From the NCBI RefSeq assembly GCF_000003815.2, contig NC_049992.1:9572311-9636310 (forward strand): a stretch of DNA of 64,000 bases, read 5' to 3'. This document shows, piece after piece, positions 8,356 through 59,016 of this stretch. The stretch's first letter is position 1; the number at the start of each line of letters is the position of its first letter. A model generated the notes under the pieces. That model had not been told where the DNA came from. It saw only the letters and a list, made by a program, of their open reading frames with translations, and searched no databases. The position numbers and the translations under genes are program-made. This DNA comes from Branchiostoma floridae (lineage: Eukaryota; Chordata; Leptocardii; Amphioxiformes; Branchiostomatidae).

Positions 8356-8460
8356 ATCTCTGATCTGAGTCGGCGTTTGATGAGTTGTTTTGTTATAGAG
8401 TCTGCAGGATTTTTTTTTCTTCAGAACAGCCATGTACCGTACAACAAAAAGAAGTGCTCA

Positions 8461-31513: not shown

Positions 31514-31711
31514 TAAAGAGCGAGAGCGTGCTGGGCAAAATCATCAGTCTGGTCCCTAAGCCTTGCCAGAGTCTCAATATTCCTCCTTCCCGCACTATAG
31601 ATTTGACGAAGAAGATAACGCCCCGCTGCGAGGTTGGGTCGCACTGCACAGCAGCCTGGATGCGCGTCTTGACTAAGTCCATAGGGGTCGCTGCAGTACA
31701 GCTAATACTGC
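31514..31711 (-). CDS. Carrier gene, exon 4 (truncated by the gap)
   Basis: Acceptor CCTTACAG|GC; encodes ISCTAATPMDLVKTRIQ, the third signature motif, then FFVKSIVREGGILRLWQGLG, then the sixth helix start (GTRLMILPSTLSLF) at the edge of the N run. Incoming phase 1. Confidence 0.8.
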
Positions 31712-37751: not shown

Positions 37752-40467
37752 CTACATTTTACAGATGTAATGAAGCCGCATGTCGCACTTCCTGTCATCC
37801 CACCTGCCAAATTCGCCCTGTTGAAAATACCAACACAACAAAGGTCATATACTCATTGGCAAGTTATCATATTTCAACCATATCACAGGTATGGGTTGAA
37901 TGTCTTGCTTTTCATTATGATTCTTCTTCTCCCCCCCCCCCCCCCTCCTCTTCCTGTAACATCTTCAAATTGATACATCTGAAATTTGACACAAGGGTAA
38001 TAAAGCCAATATCCCGGGCGTTTTCTTTTTTTACGTATCTGCCTTTAAATGATTTTATTGACATTTTTGGACATTTCTATCCCAAGAGTGTATATTTTGA
38101 CCATCTGAACGCTGATATTACAATCACATGACCTGAAATGTAGTATAGGGATGCATTAGATATTTATTCAAAGAATCCATATTTAATTTTTGCCAAAATA
38201 CAATTCAAATTGATTTCTTTGTCTTTTGGGGGGTTTGGTGCACTGGAAGAATCCATAATTGCAGTCTTTTAAATTCATTTTAGACTAGGGTTCCTTTTTT
38301 AGATGAAGTGTTGAACTGTTCTAGCCTGGGTACAATCCAATTTCTACCGGGGCTCCTTACACTCGCTACCCTATTTTGTTTAGGGTAGCGAGTGTAAGGA
38401 GCCCCGGTAAAAATCGAGTGGTACCCAGGCTAGAACTGTTCAACTTTACATAAGGGTGGCACTGGGAGGTTAATACTTGCACAGAGGGGGAAATATCTTT
38501 AGAATTCAATTATGGACTGGGGTAGTGACTCCAAATTCAATTTATTGACCGAAAGTGTTTTTTGACTTGTCCATCTTAAATGTGGGTACTACTGAAAGGA
38601 TCCATGCATGGTCGCGAGGGGTAATATTTTTTGAGGGGTGAAGTTTTTTAAGATTCAACTTTGGACGGGGATGATTATATTCGGAGTCCATTTTTTAGTG
38701 AAAGTGTTTTTGAACTCGTCCATTTTAATTGCTTCACGAAGAGTCCATTCTCGCACGTAGGTTGGCTTTTTAAAAATCCAATTTTGCAACAGTCCATTTT
38801 GCAAGGGCGGCAGATGGTTACGTTGAAATATGCTGCATTTGCTCGCAAATGTTGCCTGTCGAATCTTTATCATAGTTACCTTCTTTTGATTTCGGCAATA
38901 ACATCTATCAAGTGCGTTCATCTTAGATGGAAGTTACATCAACAAGAAAAAGTTATGAACGTTGTCTTGTGCATGGACATTTTCTTGTCAGGAAAACCAA
39001 GTAGGTTGGGAAACGGTTCCAGTCGATGAAAAGTTCCTCTTTACCCTCTTGATGTACCTCTTTACTAGGCTACAAATACGCTTTTTCATTTAGGTTCTAC
39101 TCACCGTCACGACACAGATCTCTATAAAATGCCGATCAGGCTCGTTAGGTTGACTCGGATCCCAGTTTGTGTACACAGCACTTGACCCATCTGCCCACCT
39201 CGATGCTATATTCGGACGTGTACGAAGCCCAATCCAGAATAATTGCCAGGTTTTCCAACTTGTGGATAAACCTGTTGATCATAAGAAAAACGTCCGATTA
39301 TCTGGCAAGCAATCATCACACATGTTGTAATGATACATTGTCTTATAACTCGGGTTACGTAACATTACATGGCGAGTCTTGTGTTCCGTTATCGCTGGCC
39401 AATCATCAACCACATCCTTTAGTTTTGAAATCAGTCAAATACTGCAATAATACAAACATTTCGTGACCGAAATCAAAGAGTATAGTTGAAATTTCCGGAC
39501 CTTTCTATAAACTATAAGTCTTTTTATTGATATTCACCTAAACTAGACTCATTGTGATCATTAAGGTCTTTCTAATCTAATTCTAAGTGGCATAGAATAG
39601 TATCAAAGCTGGCAAAGCAGTGTAGCCGACCAAGGAGTATCACCAGCCACCGCGAATCTGCCATCACTGAAACATAGGAGCATTTCTATTCAATAATGGC
39701 GTTGCTGCCCCTCCCTGTGGCCATATAAACAGATATACAATGGTTGGTGAGACTCCTTGGTAGGCTACACTCCTTTGCCAGCTTTGATACTATCTTCTGT
39801 CACCGGTACATCTGTCTGGAGATTAAGGTCTTTCAAGATAGCCTTCTTTTGAAAATCAGTTGGTAATATAATAGGCGACAAAATAACCGGTGATGTCCTG
39901 ATCAGGGCTAGGGACACTTCGAAAACCAGGTCCCGGTTGTCACCTGTTTGAGGGAACGAAAAGTAAATGTGTATATCCGGGGATGTACACAAATCATTCT
40001 CATTCCTATTTTCACGTTTGGTGTGTATCCTGTCTTTCATATCATGCTTGTCGTTCCTGCAAACTGAAAAGCCGGGCGCCGGGTTGGAAATACGCCCTGG
40101 CATAATGAATGGGCTAGAACGATTATCAAAACTGTCCGGATTGTTTCTGCTTCGTTTAATGATATGAAACCCACTACGACATCTTGAAAATGTTTGGTAA
40201 ATGCATCAACTTTATCGTTAACGCGTTACTATCAGTCAAAAAACACTCATCACTATTGATGATGATAAGGAGCTCTTTATTGCCCACCATTCGAGATGAG
40301 ACTGGTAATGAAGTTGTTCTCGTCAGCGTCTTTGATGGAGGCAAGATCTGCACCATGACGTTCACATAGTGACCTTGCTCTAGGCCAGTCAACGGGAGAT
40401 CCCCGGCCCAGCCAGTAGCAGTGCTGTTTGTATTTGGACCATCCTTGCTTACAACGTACACGTGGAG
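37752..40467 (-). CDS. Lectin gene, second C-type lectin domain (three terminal exons)
   Basis: Exons 40467-40288, 39271-39105 and 37817-37752 join in phases 1-1, 1-0 and 0-stop. The domain is the long form with six cysteines: [72 protein letters not shown] and then TAG 37754-37752. The sugar-site triplet is QPN, between the mannose EPN and galactose QPD types, and WDD again replaces WND. The last exon is only 22 codons and was located from its RWDDRKC and YIC motifs. The stop directly after the final Cys-Lys-Met ends the protein at the natural domain edge. Confidence 0.85.
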
Positions 40468-40865
40468 CTGTAACAAACGATAGTGCAAGCGTTAATATCA
40501 AGATGCATGCATAACGTTAACGTGACGCCATGGAATCCTGGGATTGTTCGTTCCTTGACAAAGACTGGTGTGGTTAACTCCGGATGACCAGACTCCTTAG
40601 AGGCGGCGCGCGGCGGACTTGCTACCGATCCCTCGCCGCACGCCCCACTATACAGCTGGCCACCACTATCAGCTTACCTCAGCTCAGCTCACGGACCCTA
40701 GACCTAACTGTAACAAGTTTATAGTAGGTGCTAGCTGGATAGTGGGGCGGGTGTAAAGTTCAACGCAGGCGTGCGGTGGAGGATCGGTAGCAAGTCCTCC
40801 GTGCCTCGACTCTAAGGAGTCTGGTTACCCAAATTAAGGGGGGGGGGCTGTTCCGTCGACCACAT

Positions 40866-40936
<71 letters not shown>

Positions 40937-43900
40937 CAGTACTAGTGCACTATAATGTCCAGAACAAGATATAACGTTACGTTCTGCTGCATTACCGCTG
41001 AAAGCAGCTATAAAGTCTTTTTCTCTATTAGAAATATCATTAAACTTAGCTTTGTCTGACAGCAAAAATTTTCCCATCAAAAATGCCATTCTTAAGCCCA
41101 AAGAGACACATTTAAATGCTGTTAACGAATTTTTTTTTTTGCCATAGGCCTAGGCCTATGACTTAGTTCAACACAGATAGTGTTTTTTTTCCTAGAATAT
41201 GTTTTACCGGATAATGGACCAATGACCTTTTACTGGGCAGACAAAGTACGTCTCCCAGCCATGGCAGTTATTATATAGACTTCCTTGCAGTCTTCGGAAC
41301 GGGGCTGGGTTTTTTTTGGGGGGGGGGCGTTGGTCCGCGACTTTCAACGTTAGCTATGTTCTCTTATGCCGGGAAAGGGAGTTTGGCGAGGAAGGGAGTT
41401 TGCTGTGGAACGGAGATTGCCATGATAGTGAGCCTTTGCCCCATCCCTTGCAGTCTTCGGAACGGGGCTGTTTTTTTGGGGGGGGGGGGGGGGGGCTAGC
41501 TCTAAATGTTATGAAGTAGATTTCTAGCGAGGTCAACGCCCATGAAGCCGATTCTTTCAAATGCAGAGTAACCAATTAACGCCAGACCGGTGGCACGCGA
41601 GGGCCAGGGAGGAATGTTTCCCACCTATTGTCCGTCGATTACTAGCTGTTAAATACCGTCAATACATAGCAAAGGGCATCTTTGTGAGGGTTCCTTTAGT
41701 TTGCAGCATGTATTTTTATGAGCTGGTCCCTTTGAATGCTGGTTATATAGAATAGAAGGACGGACTGAATAATCAACAAACAACACGACTTGAGTGCATA
41801 AATTTGACAAACAAAAGTCACAACTTTTGGGGGTGACAACATTTTTGGGGAGTGACAAGAAGCGAAACATTTCAGTTACAAAAGTACGACCGTATAGTGA
41901 TAAAAAGTAAAATATTCAACAAAGAAAACTTGTTTAAAAAGTTTAAAAAATTGCACCACGTCAGGTTCGAACTCTGGTCCAAAAGTTACAAATCCAATCA
42001 CTAGTCAACTACGTCACGAAGCCTTGAGGTTCAAGTTGACGAAAAAATTGAACTAAAGTGACAAAGCGCGTAATAAAAGAGACAGAAATAAACAGTAGGG
42101 CCGTCATTTCAAATAGTTTAATGGCACGAAAACTCGCTACAGTCCCGTCATCTTTTGATCACCAAAGTAAACTTTTAAAACTGATATATAGAGTTGTTTG
42201 TGAGCAAGTAAAGCTCCCGCACGGTGCAAAATGACGAACAATAATGCCTGCTTGATTTGAGTTCACGGCATTTGCATGATAAGCAAGGGTGCGAAAAGCT
42301 CACAGTTATCGCCCAATGTCAGTGACCTGCCAACAGCTATTTGATTGGTCCTCGCTAGAAACTACTGAATGTCAAATAGTCTACACGGGGGGGGCGGGGG
42401 GCTTAGTCCGCGATTTTCAACGTTGGCTATACATCTCTTGTGCCGTGATAGCGAGTCTTTGACCCGTCCGACGCGGACCAACAAACACAATGCACAAACA
42501 CAACATGAGAAAATGAAGACCTGTTACTAATTTGTAATGATAACATTCAAACAGAATGACCACACCAGAAAGATCATAATTTGAAGATTGTTCAAAAAGT
42601 ATTTTTGCCGTATATATGATTCAGTTTAACACGGCTATATGTTTTTGTTTCTACAATATGTTTTATCGAAGAATGGTTCAGGACTACAATGACTTATAGT
42701 GCAGAGTAGTCAAAGTACGTATCCCAGCCATGACATTTATCATCTCATTTACAGTATTCTGACATGGAGATTTCACGTCATTCGGTATCTACACGATTTA
42801 CCGGAGTCTGACCTGTAATCTGATAAACCTCGATGGCCATATGTCCACCTTTGCCGTCCCGTGTACAGCCAGTTGTACGCCGGCGCTTCATGTACTTGTT
42901 ATGTCCATCAGCAGACCCAACACACGCGCCACCATACGTCACACCAAACACGGTAAAACCGCGAGAAAGTGCAACCTGGTAACACTTTTCGATGCCGTTT
43001 TGACGGTAAAAAAAGTGGCCATCAAGGCGTGGATCTGCCCCCTCGAGTGACGGCAAGAGTTTGTCGTAAGTGTCTTGCCAGCAACCCAGGCTGGTGTATC
43101 CATCGCCTCCTGTATGGGAAAGAGGGTATACAGTATTTCACGTGTTCTAGTTGGTTGCCAAGACCATATACCTGATCCCTACCAATATACGTTATTGACA
43201 CATTTTACAGAATAAGTCTATGACTTTGGTGTGATAATTGAAAGGGCAGCAAGATCAAACAATAATAACACAGATTAGATAAGAAATAAATGTTTACGAC
43301 TTCAGTCGCGGGCTTAATGTGAAAAGGCAATCTCCCAAATAGCGCACCAATTTATAATGTACCCAATTTATCATTGACGTAAAATTGGCTTACTATAACG
43401 ATGATGCCAAGACGCCCTACTCATTCCTCACTTATACCTTTGTTGTTGTGGTTGATGCACTGTTTACTATCAAAGATTACTAGTAAATTTTTTTCAAATT
43501 GATAGCGAAATAAGTTCTAAGTCGATGGTTTGAAATAACGTTTACGCAGTTTTCAATGCCTTAAAAGAATTAGCCGATTTCTATGCGTAAAAGTCATAAC
43601 TTTATATTACCTTTGTCGCAGTCCTCTCCTGGACCTGTAAAGCAATATGTACAACAACTTAAAGGAAGAAAACAGCTGAAACGTAGATTCAAAACCGTTG
43701 AAAATACTGAAAGCGATTTTTGTCACAGTTATCATTCATCTTTTATTCCAGACTGTGTGTTTATAAAGAATGAAAACATTACCTATTTGGCAGACAAAGG
43801 ACGCTTCCCCATATTGCCCGTCACAGTACTGATCATCCCACTGATGGCCTCTAGCTGCCCATAGATGAGCGCAGTTCTGGTAAGGTTGTTGTTTGTTCGG

Positions 43901-46900
43901 TTCTCCCGGAGCCCATTTTCTGAAGCTGCAGTCATCCAGTGGTGTTCCGTCTAACCACATCCATTTGTTTCCATTCTAGTTTAGGGAAGAGAGCCAAGCA
44001 AAATCAATTACGTCAAGACACATTTCAAACCTCATATCTTTTCCGCCACTGTAAAGCTGGTTTTGTCAGGTGTGTTTTGGTTAAAAAAAAGCTCGAGGTC
44101 AACATTTTAACGAGCTACAGCCAGAAAATTGTCATGATCACACCAGGATTTCACCCCGTCCTGATGGATCAGCCCGATCAGTGACGTCAAATTAAGATGT
44201 CACATATAATATAAATTTATAAAGTATATATATACTTGACTTAAGCTCATAGTTAGATAGATAGATTCATACTAGATAGATAGAACTTAGGTAGATACTT
44301 ACGGCCAAATTGTTCATCCCAAACCAGTAATCTCTTCTTGGATCAGCCCTCCGAATTAAAGTAAGGAGAAACTTGTACACAGCCTCCGTCTTAATCACTG
44401 CAAGTAGACCGCGATTCTGCGCACATGTCTGCTGGGCCGCTGTGTACGACTTCCTCTCCAGAAATACCTTGTACCTGGTGGAACCTTTACGTGCCCAATC
44501 ATAGGGATCTGCCGCATGGAAACACATTACCACAAACATTCTAGAAATTCTAGAAAAACATTGAAACATACAGTAATATAGCTTAGGATATATCAGAATT
44601 CTTTACACAAGCAGATATAAAAATATAGATATATATAGATATAGATAGATGAGAATAAGAATAGTCTCTTCATAATGTAAATTTAATGTCTAGAAATCGC
44701 CCCAAACCCCCGTCCGTTGAACTTCAGGGGAAGACGAAAGAATTGTTGGTCGAGCAGAAAAACGATGTTTTTGCGTGACTTCTTTTCAGCTACAGGAAGA
44801 CCGAGGTACTTTATTTCTTGAACTGTGAACTGTCACTATTCAACCGCTATAATTTCATCATCGCAAAAATTTAACACTCTTTTGCCCTCTCCCACTGACC
44901 CGAAACTACAGTAATTTCATACTAGTACCGTACTTTAAAGACACTTTCATTCTTGATTACAATTCGCATGCAATATGCTAATGATTCACACATTAACAAA
45001 GAAGGCATTGTTGTTATTCAAGAAAGAAAATGGACATCGTGTTGTATTTTTCTACAGATGCAACACGTTATGTGACCCTAAACTTTGGTTATGATTTGAA
45101 GTTTCCCTGCTTATTTACCCATTGCAAAACAAGGGCAGTTACTGTGGCACTTAATAGGCAAGTTACGACAAACTCACCCCGGTTACAGTTCTGTCCAGGC
45201 CACCCTTGCCTACAGGTGCACTTGTATCCGCCATCTTTGTTCCCACAGTCTCCATGTAGGCAGGATTCAGCGTTGCAGTCAGTGGCGACTGTTAAATCAC
45301 AGGTATTATTAAGGTTATGCAATTTAGTAACTGGGTTATTTAAAATGAAGGACATTCAAAGAGACATTTAATGATAACAAAGGACAACGCAACCGGTTTG
45401 ATATCTTTGATGCTGCTTGAAAATGATTAACCTTGTTGGCAGTTCTGCCCATGTCCATCCAGGCGAGGAGGTACATACGAAACTTAAAAAAATCAAAACA
45501 GAATGTTTAAGTTTACTGAAAAAAGAGAGGGAAACATAATGCAGGTAAACACTTATAGCGAAACTCACCTTTTTGACAGTTCTGTCCCCTCCATCCACGT
45601 GAGCAGGTACATTTGTATCCGCCATCTTGGTTCACACAGCGTCCACGTTGACATGGTTTTCTAGCACACTCGTCTATATCTGTGTGGTAAAGGAAAGGAA
45701 CTATGAACCCAACTTAGTTAATTAACTTTCAGGCAGAAGATTGCACCTAAATATGAATATGCTTGTGAAACATGAAGGGATTTGTAATGCAAATAAGAAA
45801 ACAGAAAATACGATTTTCTGATAGAAAATTGCAACCTTCAAACAGAATTATTACACCAGAAGGAGCTACCTTGCTGACAGTTCTGTCCAGTCCATCCAGT
45901 TAAGCAGGTACATTTGTATCCACCATTTTTGTTCACGCAGCGTCCATGTTGACAGGGGTTTCCGACACACTCATTTATGTCTGTGTGATAACGTTAGCAG
46001 AAAGAGCTTTCATACCGATATCATACTACGAAACAGTTTGGATAAGATACAGGACTTTTATAACAAAGAGAAGTAACGAATCTAAAGAAAATTATTGTAA
46101 AACAGAAGGAACTCACCTTGCTGACAGTCTTGTCCAGTCCATCCGAGCGAGCAGATACAGCGGTATCCGCCATCTTGGTTCACACAGTGTCCATGTTGAC
46201 ATGGTTTTCTGGTACATTCATTTATGTCTGTGTGATAACGGAAAAAATGTACTTACTTCAAAGAACGTTTGCAACGATGATACAACGTAAAAGCTTGGAT
46301 AAGATATATATTTTGTGAAACAAAGAGAAATAAGAAATGGAAGAGATTTGTTTTACAACTGAATGATAAGTTACCGTGCTGACAGTTCTTTCCAGTCCAT
46401 CCCGGTGAGCAGGTGCATTTATACCCGCCATTTTGGTTCACACAGCGTCCATGTTGACAGGGGTTCCTGGCACATTCATCTATATCTGTGTGATAAAGGA
46501 ATGGAACTATGAACCTATCTTAATTAATCAACTTTCAGAACATTGCACCTAAATATGAAACAAAGAGATTTGCAATGCAAAGAAGAAAACAGAAAATATT
46601 ATTTTCTGATAGAAAATTGTAACCTTTAAACAGAATGACCACACCTGAAGGAACTCACCTTGCTGACAGTTCTGTCCAGTCCATCCACGTGTACAGGTAC
46701 ATGATACCCGCCACTTTGGTTCCAGCGTTCATGTTGACAGGGGTTTCTGGTACACTCATTAATGTCCGTGTGATAACAGAAAGAGCTATCATACCGATAT
46801 CATTCTACGTAAAGGCTTGGATAAGATACAGGGATTTTGTAAGAAAATTGTTTCACATCAGAAAGAACTCACCTTGTTGACAGTTCTGTCCAGTCCATCC

Positions 46901-48445: not shown

Positions 48446-48512
<67 letters not shown>

Positions 48513-51500
48513 CAACAGCATAACTCAAGAAGCCTTAGATGGATCCTGATGATATTTGGTAGGTGGGTAGGGGTCGGCAAAACGAAGGTCAAGTTCGATA
48601 ATGGGCCCCCTAGCGGCTTGCTAATGTACTGCAGCAGAACATCTATTTTTGATACCTCGTGTTTTGGACATGCTGTGGTGGTGATTTTTGAGTGGTAGAT
48701 AGCCCTTGGGGCAGAGAAGAAGTGCTGTGAGTTTGAACCCCCTTTTTTGAAACTGCATGCGCCGATTTCCTTTCAAACTTGTTTAATTATGCATATCAAC
48801 AGCTAATTTGCATAATCAATGAGGAAATTTTATAAATCCACTGCATTTCATGATAGGACTTTCAAACTTGTCACATATATAGCTGAGAAAGAGTGAAATG
48901 TCAATAACGTTACATATTAATTATACAAATGACGACCTCATTTGCAGAACGAATGAGAAAATATGAACGTGTTGACGGATCGTCATGATTTTTGGTATGT
49001 AGATAGCCTAAGTGAAGCCTTACGTAACGAAATAAATACTAATAATGTGATAGTAATTATGCAAATTAATAGCTAATTTGCACAATTCATGAGGAAAGTT
49101 TATAAATCCACTGCATTCCATGATAGGACTTTCAAACTTGTCACATATGTATAAAACTGAGAAAGGGAGAAATGTCAATACATATTAATTATGCAAATGA
49201 CGACCTCATTTGCATGATTAATGAGAAAATATGAACGTGTTGACGGATCGTCATGATTTTTGGTATGTAGATACCTTAAGTGAAGCCTTACGTAACGAAA
49301 TAAATACTAATAATGCAAATAAACAGCTAATTTTAGTAATTAATGAGGAAATTTTATAAATCTACTGCATTCCATGATAGGACTTTCAAACTTGTCACAT
49401 ATGTAACTGAGAAAGAGAGAAATGTCAATACATATTAATTATGCAGATTATCACCTCATTTGCATAGTTATTGAGAAATGCTATAATTCCATACTGGTAA
49501 ATGATAGGAATTTCATACTTACATCATTATGGAGCTTAGTGAAGGTGAACATGCCCGGTGGAATTATGAGAGTTGATGGTAGCTTTCCACGGACCAATTT
49601 AGCGCATCTTGGTTAACTTGGTAGGTGTATATGAGCACTTACCATTTACCAAATACCCTATGTTTCTTTTGGACAAGCAACGATGCATATTTTCTGTCAA
49701 ATATAAAATTTTGTAGAAAAAAATAGAGAAGCAGCTTCATAGCTGTTTGTGTATCACTGTCATGCGTTGAACAAAGCATATTGTCAGTGTCAAAAGCAGT
49801 AGATATTTACCGTCGCATGTGTAATTGACTTCCAGGTACTTGAAGGTTTTACGACAAGGATCTACTGTGCGTTCGGCCCTGATAGAGCAGCTGGACTTCC
49901 CCTGGCAGCTGGCCCTGACCCAAGTCGTGCTGTCGGGGCTGCGGCAGTCGGTGGTAAGGATTGAACTGTGGGGACAAACCTCAGGGCCTCTGGTCCGGCC
50001 GTACAGGGCAGACACGATGTTAATATTTTTTCCAGCAGGACAGCTGATGGTCAATGTTTGGCCCTCACAAGCTCGAACGGGCCCCAAGGTTCCTGCAACA
50101 TATAATTATAACCGTGAGTGTCCTCCTTTGCAGACTAGCTCCAGATACTTTCTTCTTGATGAAGATACAATCGGACTACTCCGAGCGACAGACTTTGTAC
50201 AATCCTAATGATATTTGGTAGGTAGGTAGGGGTCGGCAAAACGAAGGTTAAGTTCGATAATGGGCCCACTACCAGCTTGATAAGGAACTGTAGCGGAACT
50301 TTAAGACGGAACTTTAATTTTTGATATCTCGTGTTCTGGACATGCTGTGGTAGTGACTTTTAAGTGGCAGATAGCCACTGGATGTTTCTGATAATGAAAT
50401 TCTTTTTTTTTTACTATCAACAGGATACTCCTGTCATGTAGATATTTTTTCTGCGGGTTCCGAGACAATATCTAGCTTGTCTTGGTAATTGAAGAGGGGT
50501 ATGAAGGGTATATACATAAGTACAAACTTGATGTAGTTATGACCCCTTCCTAAAAATAAGGACATTAAATGTTATACTTGTGACGGAACAGCATCTAAAA
50601 ACATTGTAACAGCCACACAGTTTTAGAAAACAGGTACACATAAGGAATTCCCTGAGGATTGTAACCACAGAGATAGCAATCTTCTTTGGTTACAAACCGT
50701 CAGCTAGTCTGGACTAACTAGCTCTTGAGTGATGTCTACCTCTTTCTCTTGTTACCAACTTTCTGCAGTGGTTTTTCTGTAATGTGACTGCCCCTAGGCC
50801 TTCCTTTTTTGACTGGTACACTATGTTTGTCTTTCTGTGTTAGAAGAAAATGTGTGTTTTTCCATAAAACTCAAGGAAATGTGATGAATTGTGCAAAGTC
50901 TACCTATATACAACTTATCAAGTGCTCCATCTGGACAACACCTGTGGGTGACTGTCCAGTTATCTAGGACAAATGCCTAGGGGAGCTTGCATGACCCAAA
51001 TTCCTGCCATTAAAATTCCTACGGACTAACTTCTCACATTGCAAACATGCCTGTGGAACACGTGTGGCTGACTGTCCAGTTATCTAGGACAAATGCCCGG
51101 GGGCGCTTGCATGACCCAAATTCCTGCCATTAAAATTCCTCCGGACTAACTTCTCACATTGCAAACATGCCTGTGGACTGGCATTCCTGTGGAAAAATGC
51201 CTGTGCAATTCCTAGAATTTTTGCAGACTGAACACAATAATATATCATTTGGCTCGCCCCTGAGGCGTCGCCAATAAACAAAGCAACCACGGCCACCTCC
51301 TCGCGTCCACCACAATTTACAGCGTAGGACGAAGATGTATGGGTATTTATTATTCTATGAAAAATGGATCAATTATTTTCTATCTACTTAGAACTAAAGA
51401 TCAAATCAAGTTTTCATATTTACAATGCCAAAAAATGACCATGCATATAGACCGGTACAGTCCATGGAGAAGGACAGTTACATTTATATCAACCATCTTG

Positions 51501-54500
51501 GTTCACACATTGCCCTTATTAAAGCATGATTATAGTTTACTGGCACACTCATCAATGTCTGTGTGAGGATGGGAAAATCATAATTTTGAATAACACATGT
51601 GTAACATTGAACGTCAAGTCGGTCACTTCATGAGAATAACTCACCCTGTTGACAGTTCTGTCCAGTCCATCCTTTCATACAGGTGCATTTGTATCCGCCA
51701 TCTTGGTTCGAACAACTACCAAGAAATTTGTTCTACAACAGAAAAAACTCACCATCCTGACAGTTCTGTCCAGTCCATCGGGTACACACATCTATGTCTG
51801 TGTGATAAAGGTGTGGAATGATATTTATCTAACTTATTCATCATTCAAGCCGATGATAACATCTCAATACTTTAATAAAATGAAGACCTAGTACCTGCTC
51901 TTAATTTGTAGTGCCAAGTTTCAAACTGAATGGCCACACCAGAAAGAGCTCAACTTGCTTGACAGTTTTGTCCAGTCCATACAAGTGAGCAAAACATTTC
52001 TATCCACCATCTTTGTTCCCACAGCGTCCATGTTTCCAACACACTCATTGATGTCTGCGTGATAACAGAAAGAGCTATTATACCGATATCAATACTACGT
52101 AAAGGCTTGGATAAGATACAGGGATTTTGTAAGAAACTCACCATCCTGACAGTTTTGTCCAGTCCGTCCGGGTGAGCAGGTACATTTGTATCCGCCATCT
52201 TTGTTCACACAGCGTCCATTTCGGCATGGGTTTCTGGCACACTCATCTATGTCTGTTTGATAAAGGTATGAAACAATATGTATCTAACTGAATATACTCA
52301 ATAACAACTACACCCAAATGAAAACAAAGAGCTGTTCTTAATTTGTAATAAAAAGACGGAAACAGAAAAGTATGATTTTTTAATAGAAATTGGCAACTTT
52401 CAAACAGACTGATTTCTTCGAAAAGAGTTCACCTTGCTGACAGTTCTGTCCAGTCCATCCAGGTGAGCAGGTACATTTGTATCCGCCATCTTTGTTCACA
52501 CAGCGTCCATGTTGACAAGGGTTTCCAATACACTCATTTATGTCTGTGTGATAACAGAAAGAGCTATCATAACGATACCATGCTACGTAAAGGCTTGGAT
52601 AATATAAAGGAATTTTGTAAGAAGTTTGTTTTACAACAGAAGGAACTCACCCTGTTGACAGTTCTGTCCAGTCCATCCAGGTGCGCAGGTACATTTGTAT
52701 CCACCATCTTTGTTCACACAGCGTCCATTTTGGCATGGGTTTCTGGCACACTCGTCTATGTCTGTGTGATAAAGGCATGAAACAACATGTACCTAACTGA
52801 ATCTACATCCAACCTGATGATAACCCCTAAATGTAAATAAAGAGCTTTTCTTAATTTGTGATAAAAATAAGAAAACAGAAAAGTATGATTTTTTAAAGAA
52901 AATGGCAACATTCAAACAGATTGATTACATCGATAGGAGTTCACCTTGCTGACAGTTCTTTCCAGTCCATCCGGATGAGCAGGTACATTTGTATCCACCA
53001 TCTTTGTTCACACAGCGTCCATTTTGGCATGGGTTTCTGGCACACTCGTTTATGTCTGTGTGATAAAGGCACGAAACAACATGTACCTAACTGAATCTAC
53101 ATCCAACCTGATGATAACCCCTAAATATAAATAAAGAGCTGTTCTTAATTTGTGATAAAAATAAGGAAACAGAAAAGTATGATTTTTGAATAGAAACTGG
53201 CAACTTTCAAACGGACTAATTTCATCGAAAAGAACTCACCTTGCTGACAGCTCTTTCCAGTCCATCCGGGCGAGCAGGTACATTTGTATTCGCCACCTTG
53301 GTTCACACAGCGTCCATTTGCGCATGGGTTTCTGGTACACTCATTGATGTCTGTGTGATAGCACAAAGAGTTATTTCATACAGATATCATACTACGAAAA
53401 AGCTTGGATAAGATACAGGGTTTTTGTAACAAAGAGAAGTAACGAAACTAAAGAAAATTATTGTACAACAGAAGGAACTCACCTTGCTGACAGTTCTTTC
53501 CAGTCCATCCGGATGAGCAGGTACATTTGTATCCACCATCTTTGTTCTCACAGCGTCCATGTTGACAGGGGTTTCTGGCACACTCATCTATTTCTGTGCG
53601 ATAACGGAGAGGGCTTTTATCCTGGTCATACTGGCAAACGCTTGGGTAAGATACAGGATTTTTGGAACAAAGAGAAGTAACGAATCTAAAGAAAAGTATT
53701 GTACAACAGAAGGAACTCACGTTGCTGACAGTTCTGTCCAGTCCATCCGGGTGAGCAGGTACATTTGTATCCACCATCTTTGTTCACACAGCGTCCATTT
53801 TGGCATGGGTTTCTGGCACACTGGTCTATGTCTATGTGATAAAGGCATGAAACAACATGTACCTAACTGAATCTACACCCAACCCGAAATAACACCTAAA
53901 TGGAAATAAAGAGCTGTTCTTAATTTGTGAGAAAAAGAACAAAACAGAGAAATATGGTTTGAGAAATTGAAGACTTGTTCTTAATTCGCAATGGCAACAT
54001 TCGAGCAGAATGACCACACAAACAAGAACTCACCTTGCTGACAGTTCTGTCCAGTCCATCCAATATATATTTTTTTAAACAAATATATAACGGGGGCCGC
54101 CCTAAGATGCCCCCTGCCCTAAGATGCCCGGATTTTTTTGCTGATCTTATTATGCATAAGTACGCCGTGTTTGTTGCCACTGACTATGATGATTAGAAAG
54201 GTAAATAAACCAAGTCCAAACAAACAGCTTTTTTTTCTATTAGAAATTTTTTTACACATATTCACTTCCCTTTTTTTTTGAAGACAGAATTTTCACAATA
54301 ATGTTGGTAGCGCCGAATCACTGTGGTCACCTGTTACTAGGTATTGGTGGCTCGTGTCCATAAATAAACAACCAGTAAAAAACAGCCACACAACTGTCAT
54401 ACACATAAGAAATAAAGCTTCACAAAACACTACAAATATTGGTCTTCAAATGTTTGTTGAGTAGAAGACCGGCCATAGAAAAAACAACATAAGCATCACC

Positions 54501-57500
54501 GCCGTTGTTTTCCCCAGGGAGCGTGGCCCCGCAGGTGGCAGACGAACGCCCAAAATAATTGTTACTCTAACAAATGATTTCGTACCGTCTATAAAAAATG
54601 AAATTTGTGATGTCGAATATGTTTCCCAATACGTACACAGAGTTTTTTTTTTGTGGTGATTTGGCGTTGTCGTTTTTCGTAATGATTTTGTTAGTCGGGC
54701 CGCCGCATTCAATGCATTTCGCCCATTTCCCATGAAAACACAACCTGGATTGTGAAAGATTTAGCCCTCCCCGCGGGAGACAAGAAGCACACAGAATCAC
54801 AATTCTACTGTTGATAGAAAGCTAATATGTTATAAAATTAGAATTTTTATTTACGTTTGCCTAAATTGTTCACCAGCTTCCGAAGAGAGCAAGTTAGGGC
54901 GCACTGTTTAACGCGGCTCAAAATCGGAATTTATATTCACGATAACGTCCTCGGTGTTTGCCAGTTGTAACGCGGAGGGTGAAGAGTTCATGAACAGTAT
55001 GACTGCCTTCCTTCTTCAAGTATGGTCTCTAGATGAATGTGTTAAAAATTCATTGACCAAAACTTGACCACTCTTTGGCAACTAGTGATGGAGCGCCGTG
55101 AGTTCGAGCGCGTAAAAAGCGGGCATCTTAGGGCGGCCCCCGTTATATTACGTGGTAATCCAGCTGTCATTGTCTCCATGAATACAACGTTATTGGTTTT
55201 GTAGCTATTGCTCAAGCACTCTTAGTTATACTGTTAACTTTCATTACATACCAGTGGTTGACAGATGTGCGAGGGTTGTCAGTAAGATCTCGGTGTCCCC
55301 ACGTTCGGTACTTGTTCCTGGACCTGTCTTCTGCCATCCAAACAGTGAGGAAGATGAGGTTGAGTTGACGACGGCTGAGCTGGTCTTCTTGTAGAAAGGA
55401 GTCCACCAAGAGCTGTTTGAATTCTGTTGGATAACCCAGCTCGTCACGACAGCTTCATTCTTCTACAAACAGGTGCATTTCAAAGATAGATATACATGGA
55501 GAAATAATAGAATTTATCTTTTTTTCACAGCTTATATGTTTAATATCTTCTCCGCTTCCTGTGTCAGAGAGTGATGAATCCTACTGCTGCATGTTTTCAA
55601 TTGGTAATGTCAAAAAAGAACAATTTCTATTTTGCAAAGACCTACCAACCAGTCTCTGACATAAAAAAGATAATACCTGAAACAGAAGATACAGTCGTAC
55701 TAATGCAGAACGTCACTCATTTGTATTATTATTTCTATCTAACAGACTAACTAATCTCGATTTGAAGCCAGAGCCTACAAATTTCAAATACGTTTGCGCT
55801 ACAAGCTGATGCACTGTTATCATGGCCAACGGCAGGGCTTTTGGTATCCATTCTCCAGAACAGCGAGCAGATTATTATTGGACTGAGCAGAGCACTTTGG
55901 ACTAATGTTTGTAGCCTCTTACGTCTTAAACTTACATATCTGATATTTTGTGTTAAACTTCTCTTGTATTCACTGGATCATAATAACCTCCAGCGGGAGT
56001 CTTCACACTTCGTTGAAAGTAAAACAATCTTGAGATTTATACCAAAGATCTTGAGATTTTGTGTTAAATTTTGAGATGTTTTGACTTGACCTTGAGATGT
56101 TTTGATATAATCTTAAGATGTTTAAGAACAATCTGAAGATGCTTCGCAAAAATCTTTGAATGACATTTTGAAAGTTGCGTTGAAAGAGTCCCATGTTTTA
56201 AGATGCATGGAAAAAATCTTGAGATCATTTAAAAGAATCTAGAGACTTTTTGAAAGATCTTCAGATTGTTGTGACAAATCTCAAGACTGTTTCGAAAAAT
56301 CTCAAGATTGTCTAGAAAAATCTCGAGATTGTCTAGAAAAATCTCGAGATTTATCACAAAATCTCGAGATTTAAAAAAAAATTAATGAGGTGTGAAGACC
56401 CACGGTAATTATGATACGCTGTGTAACCCAGGTTTTCTCAAAATTTCAGATGTGTACCTTTATCTATTAGACAACATTAGTCTAAAGTGCTCTGTTAAGC
56501 TCAATGATAATCTGCTCGCTGTTTCAGGCATTGGACATTCCTTACCTTTTGATGGATTGCAACGTGAAATTGCATAACATCGGGATCTGTCCGGGAGGTG
56601 AACCCAGAACCTCTGGATTCTTGATGTGGCCATCTAACCGCCAGGTCAAACAATGTCACTTTTACCTCTACTGGCCTTCCTTTCCATCAGAACATTATGA
56701 ATACCATGGCTTACCCTAGAATACCCTCCAGGTACCAGATGAGTTGATAGCATGCCAGCGGTGACAGCCAATGCTAGTATCAGAAAGCCGAAACCCAATA
56801 CAAGCCAGCAAACCTTACTGGATTTCATCAGGCCCCACAACTCCCCCGCACGATCTAAAATGCAATACAAAACATGATCATAACTCTAATTGTAAACTGT
56901 ATGGTTAAAAGTACCGAAAAAGTACTTAAAACCAGAGTTCATACCACGACCTTACACTTTCGACTAAAACATATCAACCTTGACGATTGATGCAACCATC
57001 GAATTCACACCATTTACCAATATGGTATAATAGCATTTTGTAATAAATGATTCAAATCAAGTAATTCAAATGATTCAAATCAATAATTTGCTTAGATGAT
57101 ATTGATCGATATTCCCTTTCTCATATTCCCTATCTTTGAACAATTTCACCAATTATGCAAATTAGCTTCTGTTTTGCATGATTAGCATCTTGAAGTAGCG
57201 AACTAACTACAAGCCATAATCTAAATTCTAGTAGATTATATGAATGCCAGAAAAATGCAATCGATTTGGTTTAATCATAAGCCCCCTTGTGATGGTGTAG
57301 TGATTTATTGAATATGGACATACCTTTAGCTTTGGCTGCAAAGCTCCGTTCATCCTCTTTTCCATCTCCGGTAGTTTCCTCTGTTTTATAGTACTGCTCG
57401 GAGACTTCCTTCTGCTCTGGCCACACAACCACGTGATCCCCCATGTCAAGATGGCAAGGCGCCGTGTGGGGGGGTGCAGAGGGTTGCAAGCCTGGACCCT

Positions 57501-59016
57501 GCGCATTTTCATCGACATCTTCTAGATCCACGTCTTCGTAGTTACTATCAATTTGTTCGTTCATACCGTCCTCTTGTAGACATTCTTTTTCTTCCTTGGC
57601 TTCTTCGTCATCTTTGGTTTCTTCTGCTTTTGTTTCCTGTTGTTCAGCTTCTGTTCCTTCTTTTTCTTTGGCTTCTCTTTGTTCGGCTTCTTCTTCTTCC
57701 TCTCGGCTTGCTTGTTCCTTTTCTTTCTTCATCATAACAGAATTGCGAGGAGGGAGTTCGGGGGCGACACGTTTTAAGCCAGAGCCCACCTCCACTTTTA
57801 CCCCTCCCACAACTACGTGCATACAAGCCTCTCCTCCTTCCTTTCTGCCTGCTTGTTCCTTTTCATTCTCATCTACGGCAGGATGGCGAGGAGGGAGTTC
57901 AGGGGGCGCTTCATGTTTCAAACCGTGACCCAGCATCACGTTTATTCCGCCCAACTCTAGATCTATGTCCTCGTATTTGTGGACTTCGTGTTCTTCTTGC
58001 TTCCTGCCTGTTCGTTCTTCTTTTTCCTCCTTCATGGCGGAATGACGGTGAGGGTGTTCAGGGGGTGCTGTAGGTTTCAAACCGTAACCGTAACCGTAAC
58101 CGTAACCCAGCATCATATCGATATCCTTTCCACACAACTCTGAATCTATGTCAGGATCCTCATATTTATGGCCCTCGTCTTCTTCTTTCTTTCTGCCTGC
58201 TTGTTTCTTTTCTTTCTCCTCCATGACAGGATGGCGAGGAGGGAGTTCAGGGGGCGCTTCATGTTTCAGACCGTGACCCAGCATCACGTTTATTCTGCCC
58301 AACTCTAGATCTATGTCCTCGTATTTGTGGACATCGTGTTCTTCTTGCTTCCTGCCTGCTCGTTTCTTTACTTTCTTCTCCATGGTGGGATGACGAAGAG
58401 GAAGGTCAGGGGGCGCTGCATGTTTCAAACCAGCGCCCAGAACCACGTTTCCACCTCCATACACTAGATCCACATCCTCGTAGGTATGGTGCTCTTCTTC
58501 CTTCGATATGTTTGCTTGTTCCCTTTCCTTCTCCTTCTCTAGCATAGCAGAATTGCGAGGAGGGAGGTCGGGGGCGACACGTTTTAAGCCAGAGCCCACC
58601 TCCACTCTTACCCCTCCCACATCTACGTGCATACAAGCCTCTCCTCCTTCCTTTCTATCTGCTTGTTCCTTTTCTTTCTGGTCCATGACAGGATGGCGAG
58701 GAGGGAGTACAGGGGGCGCTTCGTGTTTCAAACCGTGACCCAGCATCACATCTATTCCACAATTTCCACCCAACTCTAGATCTATCCCCTCGTAATTATA
58801 GCCAGAGTCGCCCTTTTCTTGCTTTCTGTGAGCTCGTTCTTTTTCTTCCTCCATCATTGTGGAATGACGAGGAGGGAGGATAGGGGGCGCTGCATGTTTC
58901 AAACCCGAGCCCAGAACCACGTTTCTACAGCCATACACTTGATCCACGTCCTCATAATTATGGTCCGCTTGTTCGTACACGCGCTCCGGAGACGGTTCTG
59001 TGTTGTTAAATGCCAT
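37752..59016 (-). CDS. Type II membrane lectin: repeat tail, TM, EGF, SUEL, EGF, CTLD, WSC-like, CTLD
   Basis: Exons joined by splice site and phase give 4,923 nt (1,640 aa with the 45-nt mini-exon, 1,625 without). Order: tail exon 59016-57324; TM 56854-56715; stalk 55462-55252; seven EGF exons (53831-53721, 53593-53483, 53350-53240, 53055-52945, 52761-52651, 52543-52433, 52252-52142); mini-exon 51797-51753; SUEL 50092-49811; EGF exons 46983-46873, 46485-46375, 46227-46117, 45980-45870, 45679-45569, 45288-45178; CTLD1 44508-44303 and 43975-43783; WSC-like 43109-42813; CTLD2 40467-40288, 39271-39105, 37817-37752. There is no signal peptide, one hydrophobic helix near residues 579-603, and basic residues on its N-terminal side, so the tail should be cytoplasmic and the lectins extracellular. 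Likely a surface glycan receptor; ligand, signalling and transcript structure are inference. It could also be two adjacent genes if an unseen promoter splits the EGF array. Confidence 0.75.
38310..38444. repeat. Near-perfect 135-bp hairpin
   Basis: The left arm GTTGAACTGTTCTAGCCTGG is mirrored by CCAGGCTAGAACTGTTCAAC. The inner arms GGGGCTCCTTACACTCGCTA and TAGCGAGTGTAAGGAGCCCC are exact, with a loop of only a few T and G. A fold-back element in the last intron of the lectin gene. Confidence 0.85.
39565..39835. mobile_element. Diverged MITE related to 9223-9392
   Basis: The left arm GAATAGTATCAAAGCTGGCA and right arm TGCCAGCTTTGATACTATCT are inverted repeats, and both continue into GTGTAG..CCAAGGAGT and its complement. 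The right end CTGGAGATTAAGG matches the family terminus. Confidence 0.7.
40587..40825. mobile_element. MITE with about 56-bp terminal inverted repeats
   Basis: The left end ACCAGACTCCTTAGAG and the right end CTCTAAGGAGTCTGGT are exact inverted repeats. The arms stay complementary through GGACTTGCTACCGATC and GATCGGTAGCAAGTCC. It is 239 bp, GC-richer than its surroundings and noncoding. Confidence 0.85.
40872..40935. repeat. CA dinucleotide microsatellite
   Basis: About thirty CA units in the intron between the WSC-like exon and CTLD2. Confidence 0.95.
41150..42760. repeat. Intronic segmental duplication and G-rich tracts
   Basis: Sequence at 41160-41280 (AGAATATGTTTTACCGGATA, AAAGTACGTCTCCCAGCCAT) recurs diverged at 42610-42760 (CAATATGTTTTATCGAAGAA, AAAGTACGTATCCCAGCCAT). 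GGTCCGCGACTTTCAACGTT at 41331 recurs near 42406. Within the first copy CTTGCAGTCTTCGGAACGGG occurs at 41283 and again at 41449, each followed by T and G runs. No exon lies here. Confidence 0.7.
41945..42020 (-). repeat. tRNA-like sequence (possible SINE head)
   Basis: Minus strand has GACGTAGTTGACTAGTGATT as a weak A box and AGAGTTCGAACCTG as a B box about 40 bases later. The acceptor stem does not pair. Confidence 0.3.
42813..43109 (-). CDS. Lectin gene, WSC-like domain exon
   Basis: One 297-nt exon, acceptor CCCATACAG|GA and donor ACAG|GTCAGA, phase 1-1. Encodes [20 protein letters not shown] then [36 protein letters not shown] and a final MAIEVYQIT. The GCW..D start, the central C-Y-Q-V, the GG.C.GS step and the closing VY are characteristic of WSC-like carbohydrate-binding modules; I know similar sequences mainly from amphioxus and other marine invertebrate proteins. 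Carbohydrate binding is inferred. Confidence 0.8.
43783..44508 (-). CDS. Lectin gene, first C-type lectin domain (two exons)
   Basis: Exons 44508-44303 (phase 1 to 0) and 43975-43783 (phase 0 to 1) give one 133-residue domain. Motifs: [62 protein letters not shown] and FVCQI. EPN is the mannose-type calcium-site triplet, and WDD stands where WND is usual; Asp can serve the same role, so calcium-dependent glycan binding is plausible. The domain lacks the N-terminal CxxGW..CY pair, so it is the short, four-cysteine form with one extra Cys. Confidence 0.9.
45178..45288 (-). CDS. Lectin gene, diverged EGF exon before CTLD1
   Basis: 111 nt, phase 1-1, acceptor TTTAACAG|TC and donor CGGG|GTGAGT. 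Reads [20 protein letters not shown] then [14 protein letters not shown]. It keeps all six EGF cysteines but lacks the DIDE calcium-binding lead and is the most diverged copy, so it may be the oldest module, fixed next to the lectin domain. Confidence 0.85.
45430..45482 (-). pseudogene. EGF exon fragment
   Basis: The C-terminal third of an EGF exon ([13 protein letters not shown]) with a 1-nt change of frame and a GTTAATC donor. The first two thirds are absent. Confidence 0.6.
45569..46983 (-). CDS. Lectin gene, second EGF cluster (five intact exons)
   Basis: Exons 46983-46873, 46485-46375, 46227-46117, 45980-45870 and 45679-45569 are each 111 nt, phase 1-1, with CAG acceptors and GTGAG, GTAAC or GTAGC donors. 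They encode EGF modules like those of the first cluster, with more variation ([28 protein letters not shown]; one donor-side HG end). A sixth copy at 46765-46659 is damaged and listed separately. Confidence 0.85.
46659..46765 (-). pseudogene. Inactivated EGF exon
   Basis: It aligns fully with its neighbours but has a 3-nt deletion removing Cys-Val codons, a 1-nt deletion after GGCGGGTAT that shifts the frame, and CACGG in place of the CACAG acceptor. Three independent lesions make splicing or use unlikely. The donor remains intact. Confidence 0.75.
47418..48434 (-). mobile_element. 5'-truncated CR1/Jockey-like LINE with poly(A) tail
   Basis: A 236-codon open frame (48370-47660) is the C-terminal part of a non-LTR retrotransposon reverse transcriptase. 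It carries [20 protein letters not shown], a SITAWNNL element, [15 protein letters not shown], and the cysteine/histidine tail [17 protein letters not shown] typical of CR1/L2/Jockey proteins. The 3' end has AATAAA at 47442-47437 and then a run of about 18 A on the minus strand. TTGAGCTT occurs on both sides (47412-47419 and 48435-48442), a possible 8-bp target duplication. The polymerase catalytic part is absent, so it is a dead insertion in an intron of the lectin gene. The intact remaining frame suggests it is recent. Confidence 0.85.
48448..48511. repeat. GT dinucleotide microsatellite
   Basis: About thirty GT units following TTTGTTTG, adjoining the 5' side of the LINE fragment. Confidence 0.95.
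48780..49510. repeat. Tandem repeat, about 265-bp unit, three copies
   Basis: The block AGCTAATTTGCA..ATGAGGAAA..TCCACTGCAT..GATAGGACTTTCAAACTTG starts near 48787, 49060 and 49315. Copies share CGTGTTGACGGATCGTCATG and TGAAGCCTTACGTAACGAAA in the spacer. Each copy has several TTTGCAT/ATGCAAA octamers. Upstream, 48535-48610 matches 50200-50270 (GGGGTCGGCAAAACGAAGGT), so this is part of a larger dispersed repeat. Confidence 0.8.
49811..50092 (-). CDS. Lectin gene, SUEL (galactose-binding lectin) domain exon
   Basis: A single exon between acceptor ATGTTGCAG|GA and donor GACG|GTAAAT, phase 1 on both sides, encoding a complete 93-residue domain. Diagnostic residues are [14 protein letters not shown] at the start, ALYGR in the middle, paired cysteines ([13 protein letters not shown]), and [16 protein letters not shown] at the end. 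This is the pattern of the sea-urchin-egg lectin/rhamnose-binding family, also found in latrophilins. Members bind galactose or rhamnose, and that specificity is inferred here. It divides the two EGF clusters. Confidence 0.92.
50940..51180. repeat. Tandem duplication, about 120-bp unit
   Basis: Two adjacent copies share GACTGTCCAGTTATCTAGGA, CTTGCATGACCCAAATTCCT and CTTCTCACATTGCAAACATG with only a few substitutions. Intronic, noncoding. Confidence 0.85.
51465..51725 (-). pseudogene. Two decayed EGF exons
   Basis: One copy (51645 to about 51725) keeps the C-terminal half ([20 protein letters not shown]) and a GTGAG donor but has lost its 5' half and acceptor. The other (about 51465-51565) keeps scattered matches, including GACATTGATGAGTGTGCCAG, but has a stop and indels. 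Confidence 0.65.
51753..51797 (-). CDS. Lectin gene, possible 45-nt mini-exon from an internally deleted EGF
   Basis: An EGF exon whose middle 66 nt are deleted exactly in frame. Acceptor CACACAG|AC and donor G|GTGAGTT are intact, and it reads [16 protein letters not shown] with two cysteines. Phase 1-1 is preserved, so it could be included without frameshift. Whether it is ever spliced in is unknown; it cannot fold as an EGF. Confidence 0.4.
51954..52054 (-). pseudogene. Decayed EGF exon
   Basis: Recognisable from ACATCAATGAGTGTGTTGG to the TGTCAAGC end, but 10 nt shorter than its neighbours, so the frame is lost. It lacks the usual donor context (TTGAGC in place of GTGAGT). Probably not spliced. 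Confidence 0.7.
52142..53831 (-). CDS. Lectin gene, first EGF cluster (seven exons)
   Basis: Seven exons of exactly 111 nt, phase 1 on both sides: 53831-53721, 53593-53483, 53350-53240, 53055-52945, 52761-52651, 52543-52433 and 52252-52142. Each encodes one 37-residue EGF module of the pattern DI[D/N]ECxxNPC, [23 protein letters not shown]. Acceptors are CACAG|AC, or slight variants (ATAG|AC at 53831, CAG|AA at 53593); donors are G|GTGAGTT, with C|GTGAGTT at 53721. The leading D-I-D/N-E and the Y/F residue resemble calcium-binding EGF modules. Calcium binding is expected from the family, not shown. Exon-to-exon identity is very high, including flanking intron sequence, so the cluster grew by recent tandem duplication. 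Confidence 0.88.
54034..54061 (-). pseudogene. Truncated EGF exon remnant
   Basis: The last 28 bases of an EGF exon (..[10 protein letters not shown] equivalents in codons) with an intact GTGAGTTC donor. It then breaks off into AT-rich sequence 29 bases before the transposon terminus. The 5' portion and acceptor are gone. Confidence 0.75.
54090..55143. mobile_element. 1.05-kb DNA transposon with perfect terminal inverted repeats
   Basis: The two ends are exact 23-bp inverted repeats beginning ACGGGGGCCGCCCTAAGATG, flanked on both sides by TATA, a possible target-site duplication (the flank is AT-rich, so this is not decisive). A second copy of GCCCTAAGATGCCC lies just inside the left end. 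The interior has only short open frames, one with two CxxC pairs. A non-autonomous element is most likely. It sits in the intron between the stalk exon and the first EGF exon. Confidence 0.8.
55252..55462 (-). CDS. Lectin gene, exon 3: extracellular stalk
   Basis: Acceptor TTTGTAG|AAG and donor ACTG|GTATGT, phase 0 in and 1 out. A Ser/Thr-rich 70-residue segment with N-S-S and N-S-T sequons ([24 protein letters not shown]). No cysteine or named domain. The outgoing phase 1 fits every EGF exon. Confidence 0.75.
55978..56416. mobile_element. Inverted-repeat element with an AATCTCGAGATT-type repeat core
   Basis: The left end (TCATAATAACCTCCAGCGGG, then AGTCTTCACACTTC) and right end (GAGGTGTGAAGACCCACGGT, then AATTATGATA) are approximate inverted repeats and resemble the fold-back at 5400-5735. 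The core from about 56030 to 56375 is a run of diverged CTTGAGATTTT/CTCAAGATTGT units about 20 bp long, partly palindromic (CTCGAG). Confidence 0.6.
56575..56660 (-). repeat. tRNA-like sequence (possible SINE head)
   Basis: On the minus strand GACCTGGCGGTTAGATGG resembles an A box, and GGGTTCACCTCC about 40 bases on resembles a B box. No intact cloverleaf can be drawn by eye. It lies in the intron after the TM exon. Confidence 0.3.
56715..56854 (-). CDS. Lectin gene, exon 2: transmembrane segment
   Basis: Acceptor GCATTTTAG|AT and donor AGG|GTAAGC, phase 1 in and 0 out. Encodes LWGLMKSSK and then [20 protein letters not shown], a single strong helix. Lys residues lie on the N-terminal side, predicting type II orientation. 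Confidence 0.82.
57324..59016 (-). CDS. Lectin gene, exon 1: nine-repeat cytoplasmic tail
   Basis: ATG 59016 opens 564 codons with no intron. Nine repeats of roughly 50-65 residues each follow one plan: a Tyr motif (YEDV, YEGI, YEDI or YEDP), a short hydrophobic turn with LGxGLK, a proline motif (PP-x-LPPR[H/N]), then a Lys/Glu-rich spacer. Repeats 3 and 8 replace the Tyr motif with CMHV; repeats 6 and 9 have lost the proline motif. YED[V/I] fits YxxΦ sorting signals and SH2 ligands, and PxLPPR fits class II SH3 ligands. These are motif matches, not proof. An Ala/Glu/Lys-rich stretch precedes the last repeat. Donor AAAG|GTATGT, phase 1. Confidence 0.85.
58084..58108 (-). repeat. In-frame GGTTAC hexanucleotide expansion
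   Basis: Four GGTTAC units inside tail repeat 6 encode Gly-Tyr repeated four times. Other repeats have a single GH or GS at this place. Confidence 0.9.

Follow-up and report, generated by a model that had tools for sequence, protein, structure and literature searches.

The locus and its gene model

In a 64,000-nucleotide stretch of Branchiostoma floridae contig NC_049992.1 (positions 9,572,311 to 9,636,310, hereafter the window, in whose coordinates all features are given), the minus strand from 59016 down to 37752 holds 24 exons that join into a predicted type II lectin receptor. All introns are GT-AG, and no stop or frameshift was found inside the joined frame, which encodes 1,633 residues and a stop. 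The translation reads as a tail of 564 amino acids, a transmembrane segment, a stalk, seven EGF domains, a SUEL domain, six EGF domains, a C-type lectin-like domain (CTLD), a WSC-type domain and a second CTLD. The initial annotation had proposed this domain order, a single GT-AG frame of about 1,640 codons and the exon boundaries 57324/56854, 55252/53831, 50092, 46983 and 45178/44508, all of which we recovered. The parts of the gene are:

57324..59016, minus strand: exon 1, ATG and the 564-residue cytoplasmic repeat tail (five YED[VI], eight PxxPx[RK], one MGDHVVV)
56715..56854, minus strand: exon 2, end of the tail and a single hydrophobic segment with KSSK on its N-terminal flank
55252..55462, minus strand: exon 3, stalk next to the membrane, carrying sequons for N-glycosylation (residues 627 and 644)
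52142..53831, minus strand: EGF array 1, seven 111-bp phase 1-1 exons (EGF1-EGF7)
49811..50092, minus strand: SUEL-type lectin exon, phase 1-1 (Pfam, 71.6 bits)
45178..46983, minus strand: EGF array 2, six phase 1-1 exons (EGF8-EGF13)
43783..44508, minus strand: CTLD1, two exons (44508-44303 and 43975-43783) with EPN and WDD motifs
43611..43634, minus strand: 24-bp microexon (GPGEDCDK) between CTLD1 and the WSC-type domain
42813..43109, minus strand: WSC-type exon, four cysteines, predicted WSC fold
37752..40467, minus strand: CTLD2, three exons (40467-40288, 39271-39105, 37817-37752) and the stop, with QPN and WDD motifs
40276..40287, minus strand: continuation past the CTLD2a donor, ending at a stop overlapping AATAAA (40281); it may give a shortened isoform, as in the annotated protein P0075 (below)

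Every EGF, SUEL, linker and WSC-type exon is phase 1-1. The 23 donors of the model match 6 to 9 of the 9 consensus positions, the weakest (6/9) being the two CTLD1 donors and the CTLD2a donor. Since 24 intact exons, matching phases and recognisable domains come together, there is little room for chance. The ratio of nonsynonymous to synonymous substitution (dN/dS) pooled across the 13 EGF exons is 0.37 by a simple count with noisy pairwise values, which suggests that these exons are maintained as coding sequence. An acceptor-like AG lies just upstream of exon 1 (~59022), so a 5' untranslated exon is possible. An Rfam scan of the window returned nothing at the gathering score.

Lancelet relatives and exon junctions

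Protein searches were carried out against 5.8 billion proteins. The tail search, in which the 7,990 candidates sharing most words were scored (lengths about 517-1,645), left three passing hits, all from lancelets (P0072, P0073 and P0074). Another search, at lengths of about 900-2,860, gave 69 hits of 1,040 candidates, and the search with the C-terminal end, at about 285-906, gave 28 of 2,698. Within these length and candidate limits the full domain order was not found, and in the literature no title or abstract start among the matches listed describes this architecture, which does not by itself prove it unpublished. The earlier impression that no known protein has this order thus holds for the order itself within these searches, but the gene does have relatives in lancelets.

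One of them, found with the C-terminal end, is P0078 of B. lanceolatum (named 'VCAN'), whose tail is related in its membrane-proximal part. A transmembrane segment, a stalk and a single EGF follow, then a CTLD, a WSC-type domain and the first part of CTLD2, so that P0078 carries both ends of the predicted receptor in one protein of another species. On P0078, Pfam calls EGF and Lectin_C only. In P0074, also from B. lanceolatum, the stalk is followed directly by CTLD2, and P0076, from the same species, has a complete CTLD2 and the microexon peptide GPGEKCDK. CTLD1 is related in P0076 and P0078 and identical in P0075, the B. floridae protein annotated as 'neurocan core protein-like'. Over 375 residues P0075 is 99.7% identical to the model (residues 1183-1557); it differs in the first aligned residue alone and is identical to residues 1184-1557. 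Its last residues, 'SNGGQ', come from read-through of the CTLD2a donor into the stop, and P0074 and P0078 end at the same point (NGG). This end, shared by three models in two species, could be a truncated isoform, possibly conserved, or three predictions making the same choice.

The B. belcheri model P0073 (1269 aa) seems to merge two tandem type II receptors into one prediction. In its second half we find a tail of the same type, then a transmembrane segment, a stalk about 60% identical and EGFs. The tail of the first half has YTDL repeats in place of the YEDV/PPxLPPR modules, and from this difference neighbouring receptors may exchange tails. Another B. belcheri protein, P0072 (1122 aa), joins the receptor tail, in part duplicated, to a reverse transcriptase and is probably a prediction error.

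We compared 14 of the 23 exon junctions, leaving out nine EGF-EGF joins, with seven sequences (P0072, the two halves of P0073, P0074, P0075, P0076 and P0078). Pieces of 40 residues were used, with 100 shuffles each, and a match needed at least 8 aligned residues on either side of the junction; at a level of about 1/100, the 98 comparisons should produce about one false match. Leaving aside P0075, the gene's own annotation, 12 of the 14 junctions are matched by one or more of these proteins. The tail-transmembrane junction is matched by P0072, by both halves of P0073 and by P0078, the joins from CTLD1 through the linker microexon to the WSC-type domain by P0075 and P0076, CTLD2a|2b and 2b|2c by P0076, and EGF13|CTLD1a by P0078. 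The matches at EGF11|12 and EGF12|13 say little about order, since any EGF pair matches an EGF-EGF junction. Two further matches were not counted: that of P0075 at CTLD2b|2c must fall elsewhere in the protein, whose model ends earlier, and that of P0076 at EGF13|CTLD1a is probably with a remnant EGF before its CTLD2.

A tail with the DHV[VI] core and the order tail, transmembrane segment, stalk and EGF are found in this gene, by a definition of the family drawn from the gene and its relatives and thus partly circular. The C-terminal CTLD-WSC-CTLD cassette occurs in P0076 and, imperfectly, in P0078, with the start of CTLD2 only. By sequence comparison we place the predicted gene in a lancelet family of type II lectin receptors and do not regard it as an orphan.

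Cytoplasmic tail and predicted topology

KSSK on the N-terminal flank of the hydrophobic segment and the sequons in the stalk fit the type II topology proposed initially, with the N-terminus predicted inside the cell. By inspection, the N-terminal tail has no signal peptide. It matches no Pfam family above the cut-off. Its five YED[VI] motifs belong to a pattern, Y[EVDK]D[VIL], for which 0.06 is expected in shuffles, and its eight PxxPx[RK] motifs compare with 0.41 expected. The known ligand preferences of SH2 and SH3 domains were used for reading them. Both motif kinds are also found in the tails of P0072 and of the second half of P0073, and in the tail of P0074 there are YxDV motifs, with a single PxxPx[RK] that does not lie in a duplicated module like the one here. 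The motif [MV]GDHV[VI][VM] is present in the membrane-proximal part of five of the six tails scanned, and the sixth has DHVVV by inspection. No NPxY was found in the tail scan. These repeated motifs suggest that the tail probably docks adaptors.

Lectin and EGF domains of the ectodomain

Pfam was run on three pieces of the joined protein; EGF9-EGF12 lie outside these pieces and are known from the translation. EGF_CA scored 180.9 bits on the piece holding EGF1-EGF8, and Lectin_C was found in two stretches at 121.2 bits. For both CTLDs, the best sequence matches with a solved structure are in the mannose-receptor family.

The WSC-type exon scores 24.2-24.3 bits with PF01822, just under the gathering cut-off of 27.8, and for this reason we call it WSC-type and do not assign it to WSC. 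All 28 aligned members of this type match PF01822 at E <1. A WSC domain has eight cysteines, whereas four are present here and in 55 of the 61 stretches counted (the P0075 copy included). The WSC fold is nevertheless confidently predicted, and a fold search ranked Wsc1, a glyoxal oxidase and Kremen first, so that the 'WSC-like' label of the initial annotation stands for the predicted fold, not for the Pfam score or the cysteine number. The counted copies come from lancelets, which is no test of restriction to this group, as the searches started from this region. Kinship with the fungal protein Y3, raised by a weak profile match (E 0.067), was rejected, Y3 not being among the matches listed in the fold search. 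In a B. floridae x B. belcheri hybrid, P0092 (436 aa) combines a hydrophobic segment close to the N-terminus with a WSC-type domain (20.1 bits, below the cut-off), an EGF and a TNF domain (46.4 bits), and is thus a TNF-family ligand to which a WSC-type module has been added.

The SUEL exon and its surroundings

The SUEL exon scores above the PF02140 cut-off of 31.4 bits and matches solved rhamnose-binding lectins and latrophilins. YGR, FG before DPC, and DPC...KYL are what we take to be the sugar-site motifs of rhamnose-binding lectins. YGR and DPC...KYL are present here; among 15 other lancelet SUEL stretches, YGR is found in 10, KYL in 13, GDPC in 14 and FGVDPC in one.

Degenerate exons and insertions lie around it and in other introns:

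51646..54060, minus strand: EGF exon remnants in and around array 1 (~54057-54040, 52054-51950, 51797-51753, 51700-51646), outside the model
45432..46766, minus strand: broken EGF exon remnants in array 2 (~46765-46660, ~45480-45432)
47660..48511, minus strand: retrotransposon fragment in the SUEL-EGF8 intron (zf-RVT, 21 bits, cut-off of 27.5 not reached)
54085..55148, no strand assigned: transposon-like insertion in the stalk-EGF1 intron, whose inverted ends of 31 bp are 97% complementary

The model skips six or more EGF exons that are truncated or broken (near 54057, 52054, 51797, 51657, 46765 and 45470). The remnant at ~46765-46660 has ACGG at the expected position of the acceptor AG. The one at 51797-51753, a truncated but open stretch of 45 bp, is bounded by AG and GT, and its inclusion would preserve the frame. 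The intron before the SUEL exon (2,049 bp) contains EGF remnants, while the intron after it (2,827 bp) holds inverted repeats and the retrotransposon fragment, which has a poly(A)-like end near 47437. Huang et al. 2014 describe exon shuffling in lancelets as biased to phase 1-1 exons and possibly aided by transposons (PMC4284660), and the setting of the SUEL exon fits that picture.

Short foldback elements with inverted arms of 63-74 bp were observed in the CTLD2 introns and just upstream (38303-38451, 39587-39803 and 40582-40830). Elsewhere in the window, minus-strand frames at 16451-18208, 31284-31751, 7987-8457 and 6851-7567 match PH domains and a mitochondrial carrier, with matches below the cut-off to a rhodopsin-type receptor and a Wntless-like membrane region.

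Alternative readings of the locus

The structure that best explains the whole is a type II multi-lectin receptor with a SUEL domain midway and an adaptor-recruiting tail, to which we give a probability of about 0.55. That a single gene of the lancelet receptor family lies here is probable, because P0078 runs from the tail to the start of CTLD2 and B. belcheri has the tail, transmembrane segment, stalk and EGF in one protein. Two genes would consist of an upstream type II tail-transmembrane-EGF gene, with or without the SUEL, and a downstream EGF-CTLD-WSC-CTLD gene starting in array 2. The annotated P0075 does begin at EGF12 (MN-IDECARK) and ends inside CTLD2. A start or end inside the EGF array was the sign named initially for two separate genes, although there it referred to transcripts and P0075 is an annotation. 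Fusion of neighbouring lectin genes by prediction error is documented in lancelets (PMC4967905), and P0073 resembles such a fusion of two tandem receptors. Nevertheless, both halves are found together in P0078, P0075 has no signal peptide by inspection, and its initial MN could derive from one of 12 ATGA|GT sites lying upstream. A scan from 55252 to 40467 for a hydrophobic first exon (ATG, hydrophobic stretch and phase-1 donor) found none at strict settings. Looser settings gave one overlapping pair of candidates, 54406/54400 to 54330, and none on the other strand; the pair was rejected as a gene start because it lies inside the insertion 54085-55148. Two genes appear quite improbable to us.

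More serious is a single gene of the same family whose SUEL exon is not in the mature mRNA, as either a module stranded between the EGF arrays or an alternative exon of minor use there. The two junctions that find no match in any of the seven sequences are precisely EGF7|SUEL and SUEL|EGF8, so the single receptor proposed initially agrees with its relatives at 12 of the 14 junctions but not around the SUEL. The flanking introns are long, with the remnants and insertions described above, the SUEL donor (ACGGTAAAT) matches 7 of 9 consensus positions, and skipping the exon would preserve the frame because it is phase 1-1. On the other side, the exon is fully intact (282 bp) and in phase while the unused EGF exons around it have decayed, and its splice sites are GT-AG. 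We consider a skipped SUEL unlikely and its inclusion in the receptor somewhat favoured, although the insertion is unproven and rests on DNA and phase. Joining a SUEL to a CTLD receptor is exactly the kind of chimera against which Banyai and Patthy 2016 warn: they showed that chimeras among lancelet lectins may arise from mistaken gene prediction, and that two species may share one such error (PMC4967905).

Besides the P0075 start, the loose first-exon candidates and the unmatched SUEL junctions, several other observations weigh against the receptor as we describe it. The joined receptor is a predicted protein, from a model built on DNA. P0078 fails at TM|stalk (transmembrane segment to stalk) and at the CTLD1-WSC boundary, the latter because its model drops that part. 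In the tail, the scan found neither an immunoreceptor tyrosine-based activation motif (ITAM; YxxL/I x6-12 YxxL/I, 0 found) nor a YxN Grb2-SH2 site, and the counts of YED[VI] and PxxPx[RK] are not independent since both sit in one duplicated module. Neither kind of motif, YED[VI]-like or PxxPx[RK], occurs in the tails of P0078 and of the first half of P0073, so adaptor docking cannot be claimed for the whole family; the 'docking tail' of the initial annotation applies to the repeated motifs of this gene and not to those two relatives. As for sugars, classical mannose-type CTLD sites carry E and N, and CTLD1 has QNC and WDD at those positions. The SUEL here has no FG before DPC, while all 15 other lancelet stretches have it. 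The FG-DPC loop adjoins the sugar pocket in rhamnose-binding lectins, so the specificity of this SUEL may be altered or lost, and with both lectins departing from the conserved sites sugar binding is not assured.

Proposed function and significance

In the type II receptor that we prefer, the N-terminus would stay cytoplasmic and the EGF arrays would form an extended spacer, probably stiffened by calcium, with the CTLD-WSC-CTLD cassette at its far end and the extra SUEL midway. CTLD1 (EPN, WDD), CTLD2 (QPN, WDD) and possibly the SUEL and WSC-type domains could make weak multivalent glycan contacts with a microbe or other glycan surface, which would cluster the receptors. Once the tails are clustered, phosphorylation of the YED[VI] repeats might create docking sites for SH2 proteins, and SH3 adaptors, for instance of Grb2 or Src type, might attach to the PPxLPPR repeats; this recruitment could lead to uptake and to ITAM-free signalling. 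For amphioxus, a phagocytic receptor associated with Grb2 has been reported (PMC10199209), which makes such a route plausible in this animal, not shown for this gene.

An immune or phagocytic role can only be proposed tentatively. The same structure could serve adhesion, gamete or self recognition, or endocytic scavenging, which we see as possible but a weaker candidate. In sea urchins, SUEL, CTLD and WSC modules occur in REJ/PKD1 proteins, whose lectin domains are considered important for the recognition of gametes (PMC1934368); the lack of an ITAM in the tail scan also agrees with a role outside defence. The repeated SH2- and SH3-type ligand motifs, on the contrary, suggest a signalling scaffold.

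A broader and rather doubtful proposal is that lancelets have their own ITAM-free type II class, in which EGF spacers take up phase-1 lectin exons, the copy number of SH2/SH3-ligand modules sets signal strength and both ends grow by internal duplication. If so, with three unrelated lectin-type folds per polypeptide, one receptor would read a combination of glycans. The locus also bears on a dispute over the exceptional rate of new domain combinations in lancelets, which Huang et al. 2014 hold to be real and due to exon shuffling (PMC4284660), and Banyai and Patthy 2016 attribute to differences produced by gene-prediction errors (PMC4967905). It offers a sharp test: the gene has matches in relatives at all its other tested junctions, and between its EGF arrays, beside a retrotransposon fragment, stands an intact phase 1-1 lectin exon. 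If the receptor is real, an invertebrate chordate would have one with a long SH2/SH3-ligand tail, which bears on ITAM-free signalling of chordate lectin receptors.

Comparison with known systems

The vertebrate DC-SIGN, langerin and Dectin families share the general plan, with the N-terminus inside, a stalk, a C-terminal CTLD and an N-terminal tail that bears signalling motifs. In these vertebrate type II C-type lectin receptors a single CTLD is combined with a short tail, and EGF, SUEL and WSC are lacking, whereas the tail here has 564 amino acids and no ITAM. Several CTLDs, as here, are typical of the macrophage mannose receptor family, whose members are type I, with CysR and FN2 domains and 8-10 CTLDs; no Pfam match to CysR or FN2 was found in the pieces scanned, and we do not place the gene in that family. 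Lecticans such as neurocan, the name given to P0075, also have EGF followed by CTLD, but the protein here would be anchored in the membrane near its N-terminus. Because no match to Link (PF00193) or CCP (PF00084) was found in the three pieces scanned (EGF9-EGF12 outside), the neurocan name is not borne out.

CTLD and WSC occur together in hPKD1, and CTLD and SUEL in SpREJ3 and hPKD1L2 (PMC1934368). PKD1/REJ proteins differ by carrying PKD, REJ, GPS or PLAT domains and up to 11 transmembrane segments; for these four domains the scanned pieces of the receptor, EGF9-EGF12 outside, gave no Pfam match.

The closest likeness is with the lancelet proteins P0078, P0073, P0074 and P0076, although the database models are fragments, imperfect or fused. 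P0078 has one EGF against 13 here and lacks the SUEL, and its tail is shorter and free of the YED/PPxLPPR modules. Common to these proteins is a type II layout with a DHVV tail, transmembrane segment, stalk, EGF and a CTLD-WSC-CTLD end, of which P0076 has the C-terminal end only.
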